NCBI RefSeq assembly: GCF_011398155.1
Contig: NZ_AP021888.1
Coordinates: forward strand, 1,657,501 to 1,721,500
Length of the DNA stretch: 64,000 bases
Reading direction: 5' to 3'
DNA from: Thiosulfativibrio zosterae
GTDB lineage: Bacteria; Pseudomonadota; Gammaproteobacteria; Thiomicrospirales; Thiomicrospiraceae
The position numbers were made by a program, and so were the translations under genes. The notes under the pieces were generated by a model. The model did not search any database, was not told the origin of the DNA, and saw only the letters and a program-made list of their open reading frames with translations. Below are positions 12,624-23,208 of the stretch, in pieces (the first letter of the stretch is position 1; each line of letters opens with the position of its first letter).

Positions 12624-12649
12624 CCAATGTTTACATTTGTAAACATTGG
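12624..12649. promoter_or_regulatory. Perfect 26-bp inverted repeat; predicted upstream activator site for the porin
   Basis: Arms CCAATGTTTACA and TGTAAACATTGG around TT. There is no T-run, so it is unlikely to be a terminator of the patatin gene. The inner 18 bp (12628-12645, TGTTTACATTTGTAAACA) aligns with elements at 14121-14138 and 22590-22607 as TGTTwACAwTTrnwwACA (TGT-N12-ACA). It lies 86 bp upstream of a sigma-54 promoter, a normal enhancer distance. Inferred binding site of the activator encoded at 17561-19309. Confidence 0.65.
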
Positions 12650-12730: not shown

Positions 12731-12746
12731 TGGCATATCAACTGCA
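12731..12746 (+). promoter_or_regulatory. Sigma-54 promoter of the porin gene
   Basis: TGGCATATCAACTGCA matches the -24/-12 consensus TGGCAyrNNNNtTGCA with one mismatch and has the required GG-N10-GC spacing. It is 31 bp before the porin ATG, which has a strong AAGGAGA ribosome site. Confidence 0.75.
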
Positions 12747-14040: not shown

Positions 14041-14120
14041 ATGCCAATTTGGAATTGCTGCACCAAAATACGCCAAATTACGAAAATGCGCCTGACAAAT
14101 ACCTACCAAATTAAGACAAT

Positions 14121-14138
14121 TGTTAACAATTAATTACA
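14121..14138. promoter_or_regulatory. Predicted upstream activator site for the ABC transporter operon
   Basis: TGTTAACAATTAATTACA, identical at 17 of 18 positions to the element in the cynS/osmC intergenic region (22590-22607) and matching the porin element under TGTTwACAwTTrnwwACA. The shared stretch extends a few bases upstream (ACAAT). It is about 75 bp before the -24 box at 14212. Confidence 0.7.
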
Positions 14139-14211
14139 AAAAAGACGCATTTTTAGCGAAATTTGCACTCTTAAATAGATATGTTGTTGATTTTAATACA
14201 CTTTAAACATA

Positions 14212-14227
14212 TGGCACTAAGCACGCT
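14212..14227 (+). promoter_or_regulatory. Sigma-54 promoter of the ABC transporter operon
   Basis: TGGCACTAAGCACGCT has a perfect TGGCAC -24 element and GG-N10-GC spacing; the -12 element ACGC is weaker than TTGC. It is 41 bp before the first ATG of the operon. Support comes mainly from its match in position to the porin and cynS promoters. Confidence 0.6.
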
Positions 14228-14267: not shown

Positions 14268-15053
14268 ATGCCCAGTAAAGCTTCAAATGTATGGATTGCC
14301 AACCTTTCGCATACTTTCAAAAAACAAACCAAACCAACACTTAAGGATATCAACCTATCCATTCCCAAGGGTCAGTTAACGGCCTTAATCGGTCGAAGCG
14401 GTTGTGGTAAGTCAACCCTTTTGCAAATGATTGCTGGTTTATTAATTCCTTCTGATGGTGCCATTCGCATCAATGGTCATACAGTGACTAAGCCGAGCGC
14501 CAAATGGAACATGATGTTCCAAAAGCCCTCGCTTTATCCTTGGATGACCGTTCGTGAAAATGCCGCTTTGGGATTGGTTTTTTCAGGAACCTACAAAGAC
14601 AAAAAGGACAAGGTTGAAGACTTACTCGACATGGTCGGCTTGGCTGAACACAAAGACAAAAATGTTCAGCAATTGTCTGGCGGACAACAGCAAAGGGTAG
14701 CTTTGGCGCGCTCTTTGGCCACAGAACCAGAAATCCTACTTTTGGACGAACCTTTTTCTGCGCTAGATGCGTTTACCCGAACTTCTTTACAAAATGAAGT
14801 GTCGCAAATTTGTCACGACCAAGGCATCACTATGGTGATGGTAACACACGACATTGAAGAAGCCGTCGCCATGGCTGATAAAGTAATCATCATGAGCCAA
14901 AACCCAGGCGAAATTGTTGGCGAACTCAGCGTGGATTTTTCTTATCCAAGAGATCGCAGCTCTGATGCTTTTAATATTCTTAAAGAACAACTGTTTGCCG
15001 AATTCGAAAAAATTGACCAGGCCAAACAGAAAGCTCTGCAAGAAACCGCTTAA
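14268..15053 (+). CDS. ABC transporter ATPase, NrtD/SsuB/TauB/CynD-like
   Basis: ATP-binding subunit of an oxyanion/organic-anion importer. The 261 residues contain Walker A GRSGCGKST, Q-loop FQKPSLYPWMTV, signature LSGGQQQR, Walker B ILLLDEPFSALD and switch His in VTHDIEEAVAMAD, the pattern of the nitrate/sulfonate/taurine/cyanate importer ATPases. First gene of a three-gene operon behind a sigma-54 promoter. Near the C-terminus a half-copy of the palindromic repeat (TGACCAGGCC at 15015) encodes IDQA. Specificity cannot be read from the ATPase; linkage to cyanase suggests cyanate. Confidence 0.88.
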   Translation: MPSKASNVWIANLSHTFKKQTKPTLKDINLSIPKGQLTALIGRSGCGKSTLLQMIAGLLIPSDGAIRINGHTVTKPSAKWNMMFQKPSLYPWMTVRENAALGLVFSGTYKDKKDKVEDLLDMVGLAEHKDKNVQQLSGGQQQRVALARSLATEPEILLLDEPFSALDAFTRTSLQNEVSQICHDQGITMVMVTHDIEEAVAMADKVIIMSQNPGEIVGELSVDFSYPRDRSSDAFNILKEQLFAEFEKIDQAKQKALQETA

Positions 15054-15113
15054 CCCCATTTAACAAATTGACCGAATTAGCTATTAAATTTTAAAAAACC
15101 AGGAGTAAGAACC

Positions 15114-16367
15114 ATGTGCCAATATTGCAATGTTGAAAATGAGTCCTCAAGATTAGATTATGTCTACAACCCTAAAAAAGGGCGTCGTGAATTTATATTA
15201 GATAGCCTAGCCACCGCTGGGGGCTTGGCCGCAGCCATGAGCTTGCCTTCGCAAGCTTTTGCCAATATGGAAATGCCAGAAGATGAAGTGGTTCGTATCG
15301 GCTATCTACCCATTACTGATGCCAGCGCCCTTTTGGTTGCTCATGCCATGGGCTTTTTTGAAGACGAGGGTTTAAAAACTGAAAAACCAACTCTTATCCG
15401 CGGTTGGTCACCTTTAATTGAAGGCTTTGCAGCGAAGAAATTTAACCTAGTCCATTTCTTAAAGCCCATTCCTGTCTGGATGCGGTATAACAATAAATTC
15501 CCTATCAAAATCACAGGTTGGGCACACACCAATGGCTCAGGGCTAGTGGTTGGAAAACATACGGGCATTGAAGAATTTTCGCAATTGGGTGGTAAACAAA
15601 TCGCCGTGCCTTACTGGTATTCTATGCACAATATTGTGCTACAAATGGCCTTAAAAAATGCCGGTCTAGAACCTGTGATTCAAGACCAAAAAGATCCACT
15701 CAAACCTAATCAAGTCAACCTACAAATTATGCCTCCGCCAGATATGCCACCGGCTTTGGCTGCTAAAAAAATTGATGCTTTTATCGTAGCCGAACCCTTT
15801 AACGCGGCGGGCGAATTATTAGCCGGCGGAAAAATGTTGCGTTTTACCGGCGACATTTGGAAAAACCATCCTTGCTGCGTTATTTGTATGCATGATGATG
15901 ATGTTGATAAAAAGAAAGAATGGTCACAAAAGGTTATGAATGCTGTGGTTCGTGGCGCACTTTATGCACAAGAGCACAAAGAAGAAGTAGCCCATATGCT
16001 TTCTCGTGAAGGCAAAAAATACTTACCTATGAAAGCCAATGTTGTTTTAAAAGCCATGACTGATTACTCGGTTGAGCATTATACAAAACCAGCCGCCATT
16101 GAACATGCCGACTGGGGCGTTGGTCGTATTGACTTTAACCCTTACCCTTATCCATCAGCCACCAAGTTCATTGTTGATCAACTCAAAGAAACCCTAGTGA
16201 CAGGCGACATCACTTTCTTAAAAGATTTGGATACTGACTTTGTTGTGAAAGACTTAGTGAATTATGAATATGTTAAAAATGCGATGGACAAGTTCGATGC
16301 TTGGAAAAAAGTACCTGGTGTCAATCCAAATGACCCACTGAATCGTGAAGAGGTATTTGTATTATGA
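15114..16367 (+). CDS. ABC transporter substrate-binding protein, NrtA/CmpA-like, Tat-exported
   Basis: Periplasmic solute receptor (417 aa) for the importer. Residues 1-50 make a long twin-arginine signal: a hydrophilic stretch beginning MCQYCN, then GRREFILDS, a hydrophobic core and SQAFA. The mature part begins VRIGYLPITDASALLVAHAMGFFEDEGL, the NMT1/NrtA fold signature, and continues with GWSPLIEGFAAKKFNLVHFL and IDAFIVAEPFNAAG. The start is fixed by an AGGAG site 8 nt upstream, so the CxxC-containing leader appears real and is unusual. Relatives bind nitrate, bicarbonate, cyanate or sulfonates; which applies is inference. 60 bp after the ATPase; the stop overlaps the permease start. Confidence 0.87.
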   Translation: MCQYCNVENESSRLDYVYNPKKGRREFILDSLATAGGLAAAMSLPSQAFANMEMPEDEVVRIGYLPITDASALLVAHAMGFFEDEGLKTEKPTLIRGWSPLIEGFAAKKFNLVHFLKPIPVWMRYNNKFPIKITGWAHTNGSGLVVGKHTGIEEFSQLGGKQIAVPYWYSMHNIVLQMALKNAGLEPVIQDQKDPLKPNQVNLQIMPPPDMPPALAAKKIDAFIVAEPFNAAGELLAGGKMLRFTGDIWKNHPCCVICMHDDDVDKKKEWSQKVMNAVVRGALYAQEHKEEVAHMLSREGKKYLPMKANVVLKAMTDYSVEHYTKPAAIEHADWGVGRIDFNPYPYPSATKFIVDQLKETLVTGDITFLKDLDTDFVVKDLVNYEYVKNAMDKFDAWKKVPGVNPNDPLNREEVFVL

Positions 16368-17194
16368 GTTCAATCGCGGTAACCCCTAAATTGACTTTGA
16401 GCGACTTGTCAAAACGCTTTAAAAGTTTACCCACAGGCGTGCAAGGCTTTGTATATGCAACCATGGGTATGGGCATTTTGCTATTCCTTTGGTGGATTGG
16501 GGGGTTATTAATTGCCTCTAATCCAAATACCGAAGCATTTGCCGCTTTTGCACCCGGCCCAACTTTTGTTGCCTTATGGGAACTGATTCTCAATGGCACG
16601 CTATGGGAAACCATTTACTCAAGTTTATACCGTATTATCTATGGTTTATTCTGGGGGATTGTGATTGGGGTTCCCATGGGTATTTTGGTCGGTTACTTTT
16701 TACCGGTTCGCCAAGTTGCTAACATGCCTTTTCAGTTTTTACGCATGATCAGTCCATTAGCCTGGATGCCCATCTCTGTTTTGGCTTTTGAAAGCTGGGA
16801 CAATGCCATTATCTTCTTATTGGTTATGGCAACCGTTTGGCCGATCATTTTCGGGACTGCTCACGGTGTGCAACGCATCGATCCCAACTGGTTCCAAGTT
16901 GCTCGCAACCTAGGTGCTGATGGTTACCAAATGCTTAGACGCGTCATTCTGCCAGCCATCGCTCAAGATGTGTTTGCAGGGATTCGTTTAGCCATAGGCG
17001 TTGCTTGGGTTGTGTTAGTGCCCGCTGAATATCTTGGGGTAACCTCTGGATTAGGCTATGCCATTAACGATGCTCGCGACACTTTAGATTACGACAAACT
17101 GGCAGCCATCGTAGTGGTCATCGGTGCGATAGGTTACTTATTAGACTTTGTAGCCGTCAAACTCATCAAACGCTACTCTTGGCATGTTGAATAA
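16364..17194 (+). CDS. ABC transporter permease, NrtB/SsuC/CynB-like
   Basis: Membrane subunit of the importer (276 aa). About six transmembrane helices are visible (for example VYATMGMGILLFLWWIGGLLI, LFWGIVIGVPMGILVGYFL, AIIFLLVMATVWPIIFGTA, LAAIVVVIGAIGYLLDFVAV). The EAA loop contacting the ATPase is recognisable in ARNLGADGYQMLRRVILPAIAQDVFAGIRLAIGVAW. Its ATG overlaps the receptor stop (ATGA), indicating coupling. Last gene of the operon, followed by a terminator shared with the convergent Rof-like gene. Confidence 0.88.
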   Translation: MSSIAVTPKLTLSDLSKRFKSLPTGVQGFVYATMGMGILLFLWWIGGLLIASNPNTEAFAAFAPGPTFVALWELILNGTLWETIYSSLYRIIYGLFWGIVIGVPMGILVGYFLPVRQVANMPFQFLRMISPLAWMPISVLAFESWDNAIIFLLVMATVWPIIFGTAHGVQRIDPNWFQVARNLGADGYQMLRRVILPAIAQDVFAGIRLAIGVAWVVLVPAEYLGVTSGLGYAINDARDTLDYDKLAAIVVVIGAIGYLLDFVAVKLIKRYSWHVE

Positions 17195-17209: not shown

Positions 17210-17235
17210 AAAACCAACCTTAATCGGTTGGTTTT
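17210..17235. terminator. Bidirectional terminator between ABC permease and Rof-like gene
   Basis: AAAACCAACC and GGTTGGTTTT flank a 6-nt loop, giving T-runs on both strands. It sits between convergent genes and overlaps the stop codon of the Rof-like gene. Confidence 0.8.
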
Positions 17236-17435
17236 ATCATTTCTATGGCCAGTAACCCATCTAAATCTACCCATTCATCTGTCGCGCTGACAGCAAACTC
17301 TTTACCCGATTTAGCGGTTAAGGTCTTAATTTGTCCTTCGAATAATTTAGTTTTATCCTCAAACACCAAACGAACAGCTTGACGGTTTGAAGACATGATT
17401 TCCAATTGATCATATAACGAACATGCAATACCCAT
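17220..17435 (-). CDS. Rho-binding antiterminator (Rof/YaeO)-like small protein
   Basis: A 71-residue protein beginning MGIACSLYDQLEIM. The order C..YDQLE, then VRLVFEDKTKLFEGQ, then KEFAV and a VDLDGLLAIEMI strand follows the Rof/YaeO family, which binds Rho and inhibits termination. The frame is open to 17462, but ATG 17435 has a TAAGGA site at a suitable distance. It lies between the ABC operon and the sigma-54 activator gene, on the opposite strand. The family match is by eye, so moderate confidence; otherwise a small Sm-like protein of unknown role. Confidence 0.6.
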   Translation of the reverse strand: MGIACSLYDQLEIMSSNRQAVRLVFEDKTKLFEGQIKTLTAKSGKEFAVSATDEWVDLDGLLAIEMIKPTD

Positions 17436-17453
17436 TTTACAAATCCTTACAAA

Positions 17454-17473
17454 GGTTAACAATTACATTTTAC
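17454..17473. promoter_or_regulatory. Partial upstream-activator-like site near the activator gene
   Basis: GGTTAACAATTA matches 11 of 12 bases of the left half of the island's 18-bp element; the right half (CATTTTAC) is degraded. It lies between the Rof-like gene and the activator gene (17561) and might mediate autoregulation, or be a chance AT-rich match. No sigma-54 promoter is evident here. Confidence 0.35.
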
Positions 17474-17560
17474 TTTAGCGGTAAACACCACCATAATAGA
17501 TTTTAATGAAGTTAACAAAATACTATTTTCGCGCTTTTAGAACATTTTTGGGAGTTGCTT

Positions 17561-19309
17561 TTGAAAAAATATGAACGCATAGACATTACCAATCAAACTG
17601 AGTATTTGGTGATCAAAGAAGCAGCCGAAGAAATTGAAAATGCCTACCAGCCAGAAAAAGCCATACACACCATCTTAAGTTTGATTTCCCGACAAATCGG
17701 CTTAAATCGTGGGCGCGTTTTACTCCAAGAAGCTAACACCGGATTTTTAAAAGCCGCCTATGCTTATGGACTCACCCAAAATGAAATCGCCAAAAGCCGC
17801 TTTGCCATCAAAGAAGGGATTTCAGGCAAGGTCATGCACACTGGAACACCAATTATTGTGCCAGACATTGACCAAGAAACCGACTACCTATGCAGAACTG
17901 TTGATCGCTCCACCCTACCACAAGAAACCGTATCTTTTTTAGCAACACCAATTATCCGCAACGGCACTGTTGTGGGCGTCTTAGCGGTTAACCGTTTAAG
18001 AAAAAGCACTCGGTCTTTAGACAAAGATTTAAGCCTACTCAAATTAATTGCTGTTTTTATCAGTGAAATTCTCGCTGTACACAACATGCTTGAACGCCAA
18101 ACCCAAATTCTTAAAGAAGAAAACGAACAATTAAAAGCCCTAACGACCAGCCAAGGCAGTCAGTATGGCATTATTGGCGAAAGCAGCAGCCTTATGAACG
18201 CTCTCAATCAAGTCAGTCGTGCAGCCAATGCAGCGGTCACGGTTTTATTAAAAGGCGAATCGGGCACTGGTAAAGAAAAATTCTCTCGAATGCTTCATTT
18301 ATCATCAAGACGCCAAGATGGTCCGTTTATCGCCATTAACTGCGCCGCCATTCCAAAAGATTTACTGGAGTCAGAACTTTTTGGCCACGAAAAAGGTTCA
18401 TTTACCGGTGCCGGTAAAACCAAACAAGGCCAAATGGAATTAGCCAATCAAGGCACGCTTTTTTTAGATGAGATTGCAGATTTAGACCTGAGCCTACAAG
18501 CCAAACTTTTAAGGGTGTTAGAAGATAAATCTGTGACCCGTGTTGGGGGTGTAAAACCGATTCCGGTGGATGTCAGAATCATTGTGGCATCTCATAAAGA
18601 TTTAAATGAAGCCGTTAATCTTGGAAAATTTAGACTCGATTTATTTTATCGTCTAAATGTTTTCCCCATTGAATTGCCGCCTTTAAGAGATCGCGCGGGG
18701 GATATTCGATTATTAGCCAGACACTTTCTCAACCAAGCAAACCAAGAATATCAACTCAGCACTATTTTTGATGTCGGCGCGATGGAATTTTTAGAACATT
18801 ACGACTGGCCTGGCAATATTCGTCAGCTTGAAAATGTGATTAAAAGAGCTGTTTTAATGGCAGACCAGCACAGGCTGATTAAAGCCCCTTTGATTCAATC
18901 GATTATCAGCGATGAAAAAGCCATCAACCTTGGTGGCAAGGCATCAAGTAACCGTCAAGCTGAAAAAACACCAGCCACTCCTCAAGGTTGGCCCATGCAA
19001 CAAAATCCTTTTCCAAACACTAACATGGCCCCACAATCCCCAACCTTGGGGCAAGGACAATTTGCCAATTATGAGGGCGGCTACAACCCAGCCTTGAACT
19101 CAGCGCAACCTTTTCAACAACCTAACCCATTTGGACAAACGGGTTATTTTGAGAAAAGAGATTATTGGAAAGTGTCGGATGCCGAAGTTGAAACCCTAAA
19201 ACAAGCCTTAGAAATGGCGCGCGGCAATAAAACCAGAGCCGCTTTAATGCTTAACATGACACCTAGACAATTCAGTTATCGTCTTAAAAAATTAGAGCTT
19301 GAAGAATAA
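17561..19309 (+). CDS. NifA-type sigma-54-dependent transcriptional activator (GAF / AAA+ / Fis HTH)
   Basis: Enhancer-binding protein of 582 residues. Residues about 20-175 are a GAF sensor (ILSLISRQIGLNRGRVLL, FAIKEGISGKVMHTGTPIIVPDI). About 200-440 are the AAA+ domain with Walker A GESGTGKE, the sigma-54 contact loop GSFTGA, Walker B LFLDEI and DLFYRLNVFPIELPPLRDR. The last 45 residues are a Fis-type HTH (GNKTRAALMLNMTPRQFSYRLKKL). About 78 residues between AAA+ and HTH are an unusual P/Q/N/G-rich linker. The start is the TTG at 17561, 6 nt after GGGAG; a TTG at 17555 is too close. Its neighbours' sigma-54 promoters make it their likely activator; its signal is unknown. Confidence 0.9.
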   Translation: MKKYERIDITNQTEYLVIKEAAEEIENAYQPEKAIHTILSLISRQIGLNRGRVLLQEANTGFLKAAYAYGLTQNEIAKSRFAIKEGISGKVMHTGTPIIVPDIDQETDYLCRTVDRSTLPQETVSFLATPIIRNGTVVGVLAVNRLRKSTRSLDKDLSLLKLIAVFISEILAVHNMLERQTQILKEENEQLKALTTSQGSQYGIIGESSSLMNALNQVSRAANAAVTVLLKGESGTGKEKFSRMLHLSSRRQDGPFIAINCAAIPKDLLESELFGHEKGSFTGAGKTKQGQMELANQGTLFLDEIADLDLSLQAKLLRVLEDKSVTRVGGVKPIPVDVRIIVASHKDLNEAVNLGKFRLDLFYRLNVFPIELPPLRDRAGDIRLLARHFLNQANQEYQLSTIFDVGAMEFLEHYDWPGNIRQLENVIKRAVLMADQHRLIKAPLIQSIISDEKAINLGGKASSNRQAEKTPATPQGWPMQQNPFPNTNMAPQSPTLGQGQFANYEGGYNPALNSAQPFQQPNPFGQTGYFEKRDYWKVSDAEVETLKQALEMARGNKTRAALMLNMTPRQFSYRLKKLELEE

Positions 19310-20756: not shown

Positions 20757-21839
20757 TTAAGCGGCTTCTAGCCTAGCTATTTCTTTTCTTAAATGTTTAA
20801 TTGACGGGGTAACGATAATCACAAAGTAAGCCTCTCGCTGTTTACGGTGCGCCGCAGCATCAACGATATACCCTTTAGCACCCGCATGTTGCATCACAGA
20901 ATCCGCCGAGCGTTTGCAAATTTCCGCACCCAATAAACGCGCTTCTAACACAGACTTAATATAGTCTTCGCCTGGGGTATAGGGATCTTCACATAACCCT
21001 TGAATAAACTCTAAAGCGTCATCTAATTCTTCTTGAAGCTCTTCTGGCGAATCATCTAGGTAAGCATTGGTTTCACCCAAGGTTAGGTTAGATTTTTTCA
21101 TTTCATTAATAGAACCCTGAATCACGCCGGCAGCCATTCCGGTTTGCAGCAATATAAATCCAGCTTTCATTTTTTTAAGCAGTGGTGTCACAGGATCTGA
21201 CAATAAATACTTTTTAGGTAAAAACGCATTGTCAAAAATCAAAGCGTAAGTGCCTGTGCCTTCCATACCCACAAACTGCACCATTTGTTTCATGGTTAAT
21301 CCATCTAGGTCACAAGGAATTAAAGCCATTGCATCACGGTCTGCTACGCCATCTTTACCATGGACGGTAAAAATTGAACCAAAGAAGTGCTTGCTTGAAC
21401 CTTCTAAAAGGTTTGAAACCCAAGGTAAAGTGCCATTGATAATGTAACCTTCTTCTGTTTCTGTCGCAGACAATTTTAACTCTTCAATACCTGCAAAATA
21501 CTTCATTGGGTTAGACAAAGAAGTCGCACCAAACAATTCGCCTTCAACCATCTTCGGCAAAATTTCAGTTTTAAGCCACTCGTTTTCAGAGTTTTCAATA
21601 TACCAAGCACAAACTGTTTGTGCCCACATCATAAAGCCGGTTGACATACATTCTTCTGAAACCACCGCCATATCTGCAATGGTGCCAAACAAATTCAATT
21701 CACCATTATTTTGTGATGGAATATGATGACGAAATGCGCCTGCTTTACCTAACTTTTCTAAAATCTCAGTGGTATAAGTACCATGGTCAATTGAGAGTGT
21801 TAGCGGCTTTAAATCTTTTTTAACAATATTCTGAATCAT
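20757..21839 (-). CDS. Acyl-CoA-dehydrogenase-fold flavoprotein
   Basis: A 360-residue member of the acyl-CoA dehydrogenase superfamily. Recognisable segments are the helical N-terminal domain (VSEECMSTGFMMWAQTVCAWYI), the mid beta-domain (GATSLSNPM, GYIINGTLPWVSNL) and the C-terminal helices (HAGAKGYIVDAAAHRKQREAYF). I do not see an obvious catalytic glutamate in the usual place, and the context is not fatty-acid oxidation. Relatives in accessory operons act as flavin monooxygenases (DszC/SfnB-like) or nitroalkane oxidases. Its place between an OsmC-like protein and a rubredoxin reductase in a sigma-54 operon suggests oxidation of a small N- or S-containing compound, which is inference. Confidence 0.78.
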   Translation of the reverse strand: MIQNIVKKDLKPLTLSIDHGTYTTEILEKLGKAGAFRHHIPSQNNGELNLFGTIADMAVVSEECMSTGFMMWAQTVCAWYIENSENEWLKTEILPKMVEGELFGATSLSNPMKYFAGIEELKLSATETEEGYIINGTLPWVSNLLEGSSKHFFGSIFTVHGKDGVADRDAMALIPCDLDGLTMKQMVQFVGMEGTGTYALIFDNAFLPKKYLLSDPVTPLLKKMKAGFILLQTGMAAGVIQGSINEMKKSNLTLGETNAYLDDSPEELQEELDDALEFIQGLCEDPYTPGEDYIKSVLEARLLGAEICKRSADSVMQHAGAKGYIVDAAAHRKQREAYFVIIVTPSIKHLRKEIARLEAA

Positions 21840-21896: not shown

Positions 21897-22433
21897 TTAA
21901 GCGAGTTTTCCACTCATATTGACGGCATTTAAATAAGTATTTGCCACTGGCGACCACTTCATGGCATGAGCCACTAATTCTTCTAGCGTTTCCTTAGATG
22001 CGCCTGGAGATTCAATCACAAAAGTGGCACGCACATCTGTCACCCCTAATTTTTTGTTAGGGTCAATATCACCCGTACCCCAAACGGCGGTGATGTTAAT
22101 ATCACCTTCTAAATGCACTTCTAATTTTGTTAAAGGAATACCACGCTGAGTGGCGTTAGCTTGAACCCCAACAGACAAACAAGAACCCAAAGAGAGCAAT
22201 GCCATTTCAGATGGGTTGGGTGCTGTATCTTCACCCAAAAGAACAGGTGGCTCATCAACGACCACTGGCTCTAAATCACGAACATAGTTAAAGTTCTTAA
22301 ATTGCCCTTCAAGTACTGTCTTAGACTTTAAGGTTTTAATGGCGTTAGGGTTTGCTTTACCTGCTTCACCCAGTTTATTAAGTCCGTCAGTATCAATTGG
22401 ACGAATGCAAGATGGGATGTAAATTTCAGTCAT
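21897..22433 (-). CDS. OsmC/Ohr-family protein lacking the second redox cysteine
   Basis: A 178-residue OsmC-fold protein: LGEDTAPNPSEMALLSLGSCLSVGVQANA contains the family's first redox Cys (residue about 84), and LEVHLEGDINI and VTDVRATFVIES are the typical strands. In OsmC/Ohr peroxidases a second Cys follows in a CPV motif; here that place reads KWSPVANTYL, so Trp replaces Cys and classical thiol peroxidase chemistry is unlikely. Another Cys lies at position 9. First gene of a three-gene operon with a predicted sigma-54 promoter, divergent from cynS. Substrate unknown. Confidence 0.8.
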   Translation of the reverse strand: MTEIYIPSCIRPIDTDGLNKLGEAGKANPNAIKTLKSKTVLEGQFKNFNYVRDLEPVVVDEPPVLLGEDTAPNPSEMALLSLGSCLSVGVQANATQRGIPLTKLEVHLEGDINITAVWGTGDIDPNKKLGVTDVRATFVIESPGASKETLEELVAHAMKWSPVANTYLNAVNMSGKLA

Positions 22434-22500
22434 GTTGGAACTCCTAGATCGTTTTAATTAATTTTAAATTTATTTCGGTAATCGAAAGTTACCCAGACAT

Positions 22501-22516
22501 AGCGACCAGAATGCCA
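22501..22516 (-). promoter_or_regulatory. Sigma-54 promoter of the osmC-ACAD-rubredoxin reductase operon
   Basis: On the minus strand TGGCATTCTGGTCGCT has the TGGCA -24 element, GG-N10-GC spacing and TCGC at -12 (consensus TTGC). It is about 67 bp before the osmC ATG and 75 bp from the shared activator element. Confidence 0.6.
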
Positions 22517-22589
22517 ACACAGCAATAACTATAAAATTCAATAAGTTATCTAATTTTTAGCCCAAACTGTGACTTAAATAATTCACAAT

Positions 22590-22607
22590 TGTTAACAATT
22601 AGTTACA
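22590..22607. promoter_or_regulatory. Predicted shared activator site for osmC operon and cynS
   Basis: TGTTAACAATTAGTTACA lies between two divergent sigma-54 promoters, 75 bp from one and 95 bp from the other. It is nearly identical to the element before the ABC operon (14121-14138). Confidence 0.7.
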
Positions 22608-22701
22608 TTTAACTTAACAATGTAACATTTTGTACGACAAAAAACCTTTTGACGCAATCAAAAATACATTTTATCAATACAAATCAAGCACTTAATAAGT
22701 C

Positions 22702-22717
22702 TGGCATATCGCTTGCA
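22702..22717 (+). promoter_or_regulatory. cynS: Sigma-54 promoter of cynS
   Basis: TGGCATATCGCTTGCA fits TGGCAyrNNNNTTGCA at every constrained position, with GG-N10-GC spacing. It is the best of the four sigma-54 promoters here and shares TGGCATATC with the porin promoter. It is 48 bp before the cynS ATG. Confidence 0.85.
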
Positions 22718-22764
22718 TAAGAGTGTTCGTCTATTTATTTAATGTTCAAAAAAAGGAAGAAACT

Positions 22765-23208
22765 ATGTTGTCTAAAGTAGCAATGACTGAAGCAATTATT
22801 TTGGCTAAAGCAGAAAAGAAAACCGGTTGGGTAGAAATCGCAGCCGCCACAGGTCTCAGTGAAGTCTATACAACCTCGGCTTGTTTAGGTATGAATCACT
22901 TAGAAGCAGAGCCAGCAGCAAAGCTGTGTGCATTTTTAGGATTGGACGCTGATGTTGAAGCGGCACTACAAACTTTCCCTCACAAATCTTGGGACAAGCT
23001 CGTACCGACAGACCCTTTAATTTATCGTTTGTATGAAATTGTGGGTGTGTATGGCCCAACCATGAAAGAACTCATTCATGAAAAGTTTGGTGACGGTATT
23101 ATGAGCGCCATCGATTTCACAATGGATATTGATAAAGAAGAAAATCCAGCCGGTGACCGCGTTGTTGTTAAAATGAACGGTAAATTTTTAGCTTATAAAG
23201 CCTGGTAA
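22765..23208 (+). CDS. cynS: Cyanate hydratase (cyanase)
   Basis: Decomposes cyanate with bicarbonate to ammonia and CO2 (via carbamate), detoxifying cyanate and supplying nitrogen. The 147-residue protein starts at ATG 22765 after an AAGGAAG site; a GTG at 22723 in the same frame would be too close to the predicted transcription start. The N-terminal helical domain resembles an HTH; the C-terminal part carries the catalytic Arg, Glu and Ser in LIYRLYEIVGVYGPTMKELIHEKFGDGIMSAIDF. The family is very conserved, so identification is secure. Expressed from its own sigma-54 promoter, divergent from the osmC operon. Confidence 0.96.
   Translation: MLSKVAMTEAIILAKAEKKTGWVEIAAATGLSEVYTTSACLGMNHLEAEPAAKLCAFLGLDADVEAALQTFPHKSWDKLVPTDPLIYRLYEIVGVYGPTMKELIHEKFGDGIMSAIDFTMDIDKEENPAGDRVVVKMNGKFLAYKAW

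Follow-up and report, generated by a model that had tools for sequence, protein, structure and literature searches.

According to the available portion of one report, the NifA upstream activator sequence is TGT-N10-ACA and AnfA reads TAC-N6-GTA (PMC7294313). The VnfA site is given, in the part of its paper that was available, as GT(T/A)C-N6-GTAC, with a 10-bp repeat and with two sites at most promoters (PMC9542535). The divergent orp region of Desulfovibrio vulgaris, as far as the accessible sections describe it, consists of two sigma-54 operons with one enhancer-binding protein and has functional IHF sites between the promoter and activator sites (PMC3897727).

The locus compared with these systems here lies in the genome of Thiosulfativibrio zosterae (2.65 Mb, one contig), within a stretch of 64,000 nucleotides that was analyzed as a whole and is referred to as the window. 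It is a gap of 331 bp (22434-22764) between the minus-strand osmC gene, which starts at 22433, and the plus-strand cynS gene, which starts at 22765. This gap is probably a bidirectional sigma-54 control region, in which a single activator of the NifA/VnfA type, bound to an enhancer with sites in helical phase, drives both promoters together with IHF. The coordinates are collected in Table 1.

Table 1. Genes and candidate control elements of the osmC/cynS cluster (window positions)
Feature	Position	Strand	Sequence	Remarks
Array before ORF402	12626..12647	+	AATGTTTACATTTGTAAACATT	
Candidate sigma-54-like promoter of ORF402	12731..12746	+	TGGCATATCAACTGCA	
Array before ABC transporter genes	14116..14139	+	ACAATTGTTAACAATTAATTACAA	Same as gap array
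Candidate sigma-54-like promoter of ABC genes	14212..14227	+	TGGCACTAAGCACGCT	3 mismatches to full consensus
ABC transporter genes (ATPase, SsuA-like binding protein, permease)	14268..17194	+		Part of cynS/osmC cluster
NifA-like GAF-AAA-Fis enhancer-binding protein, proposed activator	17555..19309	+		Profile matches
osmC-family gene	21897..22433	-		Pfam OsmC PF02566, E 3.8e-20; first gene of leftward set
Inverted repeat of osmC leader	22473..22487	-	TTTCG-N5-CGAAA	Near expected osmC transcript 5' end; only perfect match in window
Candidate sigma-54 promoter of osmC	22501..22517	-	TTGGCATTCTGGTCGCT	Pattern match 22516-22501, TGGCATTCTGGTCGCT; motif and conservation
IHF-like site, osmC promoter	22536..22548	+	ATTCAATAAGTTA	1 mismatch to WATCAANNNNTTR; aligns with perfect site of T. 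arctica
Main array	22585..22607	+	ACA 22585, 22595, 22605 (10-bp steps), TGT 22590	Contains TTGTTAACAA dyad; triple pattern
First inverted repeat	22602..22626	.	GTTACATT-N9-AATGTAAC	Arms 22602-22609 and 22619-22626; holds half-sites 22605 and 22621, facing
Second array arm	22621..22633	-	TGT 22621 and 22631 (10-bp step)	Opposite orientation; kept in T. arctica
Second inverted repeat	22628..22642	.	TTTTGT-ACG-ACAAAA	TTTTGT 22628-22633, ACAAAA 22637-22642; half-site 22631 and unpaired ACA 22637
IHF-like site, cynS promoter	22682..22694	+	AATCAAGCACTTA	Perfect consensus, 19 bp before -24 element
Candidate sigma-54 promoter of cynS	22701..22717	+	CTGGCATATCGCTTGCA	Pattern match 22702-22717, TGGCATATCGCTTGCA; motif and conservation
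cynS, cyanase	22765..23208	+		TIGR00673, 170.1 bits against cut-off of 113.3

The cluster and its activator gene

The leftward set runs from osmC to an acyl-CoA-dehydrogenase-like flavoprotein and then to a rubredoxin/rubredoxin-reductase fusion, and beyond it lie genes encoding a sigma-54 activator of NifA-like type and an SsuA-like ABC transporter. The best matches of the flavoprotein among solved structures, found by sequence search, are short-chain acyl-CoA dehydrogenases, and the protein is present in 27 of 62 genomes within the order. The window's copy (20757-21839) scores far under the cut-offs of its matching NCBIfam models. Relatives at 38-40% identity are located on plasmids of Acetobacter, Pseudosulfitobacter, Caballeronia and others.

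Nineteen named loci were found through the flavoprotein and 18 were examined, with L094, a partial match at 28%, left out. The divergent osmC/cynS pair was seen in 16 of the 18, Methyloprofundus and Halothiobacillaceae MAGs among them; L086 and L092 showed no cynS in the sequence stretch covered. The nearest named locus is that of Thiomicrorhabdus arctica, where eight cluster proteins are 80-92% identical and ORF402 is 65% identical. The cluster is a unit. Its activator gene is found in 14 of the 16 named loci with the divergent pair, and the remaining two (L082 and L091) are short contigs, 4.3 and 8.2 kb in length. A conjugative plasmid of Marinobacter shengliensis, pMAD49a, holds the whole cassette (L095 5941-14431). 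On this plasmid, the genes for the ABC transporter, activator, OsmC, flavoprotein, reductase and cyanase all point in the same direction. No description of the region or the cassette was found in a literature search that was thin on subscription journals; a Hydrogenovibrio paper, in its available portion, has cyanate hydratase in a table (PMC5733100).

The GAF (PF01590), AAA (PF00158) and Fis (PF02954) domains of the proposed activator all score over cut-off, which places it in the broad NifA/VnfA type. Against the NifA model TIGR01817 it scores 423.4 bits, under the curated cut-off of 528.85. Among solved structures, its best relative is 9qq6, a Nif-specific regulatory protein.

The genome has a second cyanase copy (C1:1337365-1337802; L027 9366-9803) in an ABC-cynS operon. 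The enhancer-binding protein of this operon is a separate one, different from that of the cluster. The operon also has a sigma-54-like site, and upstream it shows, by eye, TTACGAAA-type repeats in place of the ACA array.

Candidate sigma-54 promoters and IHF-like sites

An earlier note on this DNA had proposed two opposed sigma-54 promoters and a shared activator region in the gap, and conservation in relatives supports this proposal. Both candidate promoters have GG and GC elements at -24 and -12 with the spacing that is correct for a sigma-54-dependent promoter, and the genome has an rpoN gene. The pattern TGGCAYN5TYGCW has only two matches in the window, both of them the gap promoters, compared to 0.63 expected; since 11 of 100 shuffles also reach two, the motif alone is weak. 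In counts made without a shuffle control, the best match to YTGGCAYN5TTGCW has at most two mismatches on the cynS side and at most three on the osmC side in all 19 regions. The Halothiobacillaceae regions have a weak cynS promoter. Genome-wide, the looser pattern TGGCAYN6YGCW occurs 91 times compared to 23 times for the reversed pattern. A search of the gap for sigma-70 promoters gave two weak matches, no more than in shuffles (2.1), and no terminators were found there. With regard to the ABC and ORF402 promoters, 5 of 24 stretches have no sigma-54 match at three or fewer mismatches and some other matches are at odd distances and doubtful. Therefore, the claim that each array is followed by a sigma-54 promoter depends on the gaps between osmC and cynS and, in the window, on the ABC and ORF402 sites.

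A putative IHF consensus is located between the activator site and the promoter on both sides of the gap, perfect before cynS and with one mismatch before osmC. Both had been overlooked in the earlier note. The region scan ranked another one-mismatch site (22560 region) first for the window, and the site at 22536-22548 was read directly. On the cynS side, 12 of 19 regions and 9 of 10 held-out regions have a match to WATCAANNNNTTR, with no more than one mismatch, that precedes the -24 element by 18, 19 or 29 bp, and the 18- and 29-bp alternatives differ by about one helical turn. On the osmC side, a match on the other strand is found 32-34 bp before the promoter in 11 of 19 regions (6 of 10 held-out). 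IHF-like sites at 32-34 bp are also seen in 9 of the 24 ABC/ORF402 stretches, the window's two included. Over all placements, the rate of IHF-like matches is approximately 0.7%, real sites included. The genome contains three HU/IHF-family genes (PF00216), among which IHF subunits are not distinguished from HU.

An array of ACA/TGT half-sites at one helical turn

The predicted activator elements are arrays with a unit of approximately WACAAW and up to five units. Their spacing rule is ACA-N7-ACA, accompanied by TGT-N2-ACA or TGT-N12-ACA. Counted on either strand, ACA-N7-ACA occurs 101 times in 39 cluster promoters, compared to 12.3 expected. In the 15 osmC/cynS regions of the core set there are 47 compared to 4.3 expected, and in the 24 ABC/ORF402 stretches 54 compared to 8.3. 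Neither number was reached in 400 shuffles, although shuffles overstate independence, and with it significance, because the regions share ancestry. In T. chilensis and in strain zzn3 the ABC stretch overlaps the ORF402 stretch, so that some sites were counted twice, and a few pairs sit downstream of the promoter. TGT-N2-ACA and TGT-N12-ACA are each found 17 times in the 15 osmC/cynS regions, with 1.7 expected for each. The core set is without G008, a near duplicate of 6S3-12, and without three Halothiobacillaceae regions; for the density count (18 regions) and the reading of the unit, only G008 was left out. At least one pair is present in 42 of 43 promoters, whereas among 1286 control tiles (300 bases each) drawn from these loci, 133 have one.

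The array was also found in held-out genomes, which belong to the same family and were separated from the earlier ones by contig coordinates, by eye. The divergent pair is in reach in 10 of these 11 genomes (L127 has no cynS in the stretch covered), and all 10 have two to five ten-bp pairs. In 9 of these regions, L104 being left out as a near duplicate of L102, there are 29 ACA-N7-ACA compared to 3.7 expected, a count that none of 500 shuffles reached; L119 and L125 share 32% and 15% of their 12-mers, respectively, with regions used earlier.

For the comparison with T. arctica, the half-sites that stand in 10-bp pairs, five in all, were picked from the window alone. They are identical in 15 of 15 bases, compared to 21 of 48 for the other array bases (Fisher p 4.6e-5). 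The unpaired ACA at 22625, which is in phase with 22605, keeps none of its three bases, and the unpaired cores at 22590, 22617 and 22637 keep two of three bases each.

Across the genome, the array patterns are no more common than their reversed controls and, thus, only their position speaks for them. The triple ACAW-N6-ACAW-N6-ACAW occurs six times, as does its reversed control, with three of the six in this cluster and one in the gap. TTGTNNACAN7ACA occurs five times (control, five), two of which are at the ABC and osmC/cynS promoters. TTGTNNACAA is found 58 times compared to 90 for the reversed control. When TTGTNNACAA was searched for 30-160 bp upstream of the genome's 91 strict sigma-54 sites, three pairs were obtained, all in this cluster and two of them sharing one element, compared to 0.26 expected.

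The three Halothiobacillaceae regions fit poorly: each has a single 10-bp pair, which in one region falls outside the array zone. No 10-bp pair was found in the Methyloprofundus ABC stretch or, in the betaproteobacterial relative L092, in 488 bases around the end of the osmC upstream stretch. On the Marinobacter plasmid, 421 bases contain five pairs, compared to 0.3 expected, a count that none of 1000 shuffles reached; the pairs are located before both sigma-54-like promoters. The plasmid keeps the 10-bp step, and its inverted spacings are ACA-N1-TGT and TGT-N3-ACA, not TGT-N2-ACA.

A triple 10-bp ACA array is also present upstream of the activator gene (17439-17462), where it also covers the beginning of a small minus-strand ORF (17220-17462) that is ROF-like and scores just under the Pfam cut-off. 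A single pair is found close to this position in T. arctica. Of 17 loci, 4 have a pair within 260 bases upstream of their activator gene (the window, T. arctica, L081 and L089), 13 have none, and a sigma-54 match was seen there in none. Autoregulation is therefore not claimed.

Alternative readings of the repeats and the array

The two inverted repeats exist as the earlier note wrote them. As palindromes they are ordinary, with 64 inverted pairs of at least six bases occurring within 601 bases; it is the 10-bp spacing of the ACA/TGT cores that goes beyond chance. The note had taken them to suggest either additional activator sites or a second regulator. The additional sites are supported, since the cores of both repeats are parts of the putative ACA/TGT array, of the same 10-bp kind as the main site. 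A second regulator is not supported for these two repeats. They would then be operators of a protein unrelated to the activator, and they do adjoin the main site, while the separate inverted repeat of the osmC leader recurs in relatives. In T. arctica, the nearest named relative, the exact palindromes are not kept while their paired half-sites are; in TTTTGT-ACG-ACAAAA, the half-site at 22631 is kept and the right arm is altered. Also, neither the cluster genes traced, where not all intervening genes were identified, nor the annotation of the Marinobacter cassette revealed a second regulator. We consider such operators quite unlikely. Another possibility is that the array is read by a different protein, either another enhancer-binding protein (NtrC-like) or a response regulator of the OmpR/PhoB type. 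Regulators of the latter type recognize tandem repeats separated by about one turn, direct repeats with a one-turn spacing differ from the classical NifA dyad, and the search for sigma-54 activators in the genome gave five strong matches and a sixth, weaker one. Simple patterns for NtrC, CRP and FNR sites are absent from the gap, however, and the array and the cluster activator co-occur, the plasmid included. Four cyn operons paired with another enhancer-binding protein have no pair upstream of their sigma-54-like site, although one has a pair downstream. A different reader of the array is unlikely.

The 10-bp spacing could in principle reflect DNA curvature or composition instead of a protein binding code, since A+T makes up 71% of the gap. 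The 58 AT-rich control tiles, with an AT content of 62% or more, contain 0.57 pairs/kb, in contrast to 8.0 in 18 osmC/cynS regions, and the Marinobacter promoters, which are richer in G+C by eye, also have the array. This explanation seems very improbable.

The preferred reading is an array bound by the cluster's own activator. The two are connected by linkage and co-occurrence, and the activator, arrays and targets are found together on the Marinobacter plasmid. Dimers of the activator encoded at 17555-19309 would stack along one helical face when bound to the array, and IHF would bend the DNA on either side of it. The activator would contact sigma-54 polymerase at both promoters, and cynS and the osmC operon would be switched on together. 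This mechanism draws on co-occurrence and on knowledge of NifA-class activators, and the layout and its conservation come from the sequence itself.

The osmC leader repeat, which the earlier note did not mention, recurs in relatives. Of 29 osmC leaders, 14 contain TTCG-N1-9-CGAA and another five contain TATTTC...GAAATA. On average, osmC leaders fold below their shuffles (mean z -1.87, n=27), with the window's own leader at z 0.0, and cynS leaders show no extra folding (mean z -0.15, n=27). G008 and L104 were left out of the folding, and the three Halothiobacillaceae were also left out of the repeat conservation. In stem length, few osmC leaders exceed their own shuffles. A reading of the repeat as RNA only was rejected with the stem sequence mostly conserved as TTTC...GAAA; because of this conservation, operator and hairpin look alike, and the repeat could be an operator for a second regulator or an RNA 5' hairpin.

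Comparison with known systems

The cassette is conserved in sulfur-oxidizing bacteria and is carried on a conjugative plasmid, which would be sensible if it turned some substrate into cyanate. Our broadest proposal is tentative and may well not hold as a whole. A NifA-class activator of an undescribed type would recognize half-sites of either orientation that recur at exactly one turn of the helix, and would treat them not as discrete dyads but as an array that can be extended. It would thereby control an undescribed mobile cassette (SsuA-like importer, OsmC, acyl-CoA-dehydrogenase-like flavoprotein, rubredoxin reductase and cyanase) that imports a compound and oxidizes it to cyanate for nitrogen.

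The classical NifA site, TGT-N10-ACA, does not occur in the gap. It is not enriched in 18 osmC/cynS regions, which have two, or in the held-out regions (one compared to 1.5 expected), and it is mildly enriched in the ABC/ORF402 set (7 compared to 2.5; 10 of 400 shuffles). The locus offers a testable DNA-reading rule for a NifA-class activator, unlike the textbook NifA site but built on the same half-site, and therefore bears on how such activators choose their spacing.

As far as the available portions of the reports allow a comparison, the gap resembles the orp region most closely in architecture among the systems found on record, with divergent sigma-54 operons, a single enhancer-binding protein and IHF sites between. 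The orp region differs in its palindromic activator sites and in its genes, and its evidence is experimental, whereas the arrangement here is inferred. Judged from the accessible text on NifA, the TGT/ACA half-site, a sigma-54 promoter and a related activator are common to both, but the gap follows ACA-N7-ACA with TGT-N2-ACA or TGT-N12-ACA, not TGT-N10-ACA. With the VnfA system, as its paper describes it in part, the gap shares an activator of the broad family, elements repeated at 10 bp and paired sites. It differs in its half-site, which is ACA/TGT and not GTAC, in arrays of up to five units and in targets other than nitrogenase. The predicted array combines the half-site of NifA with a period like that of VnfA.
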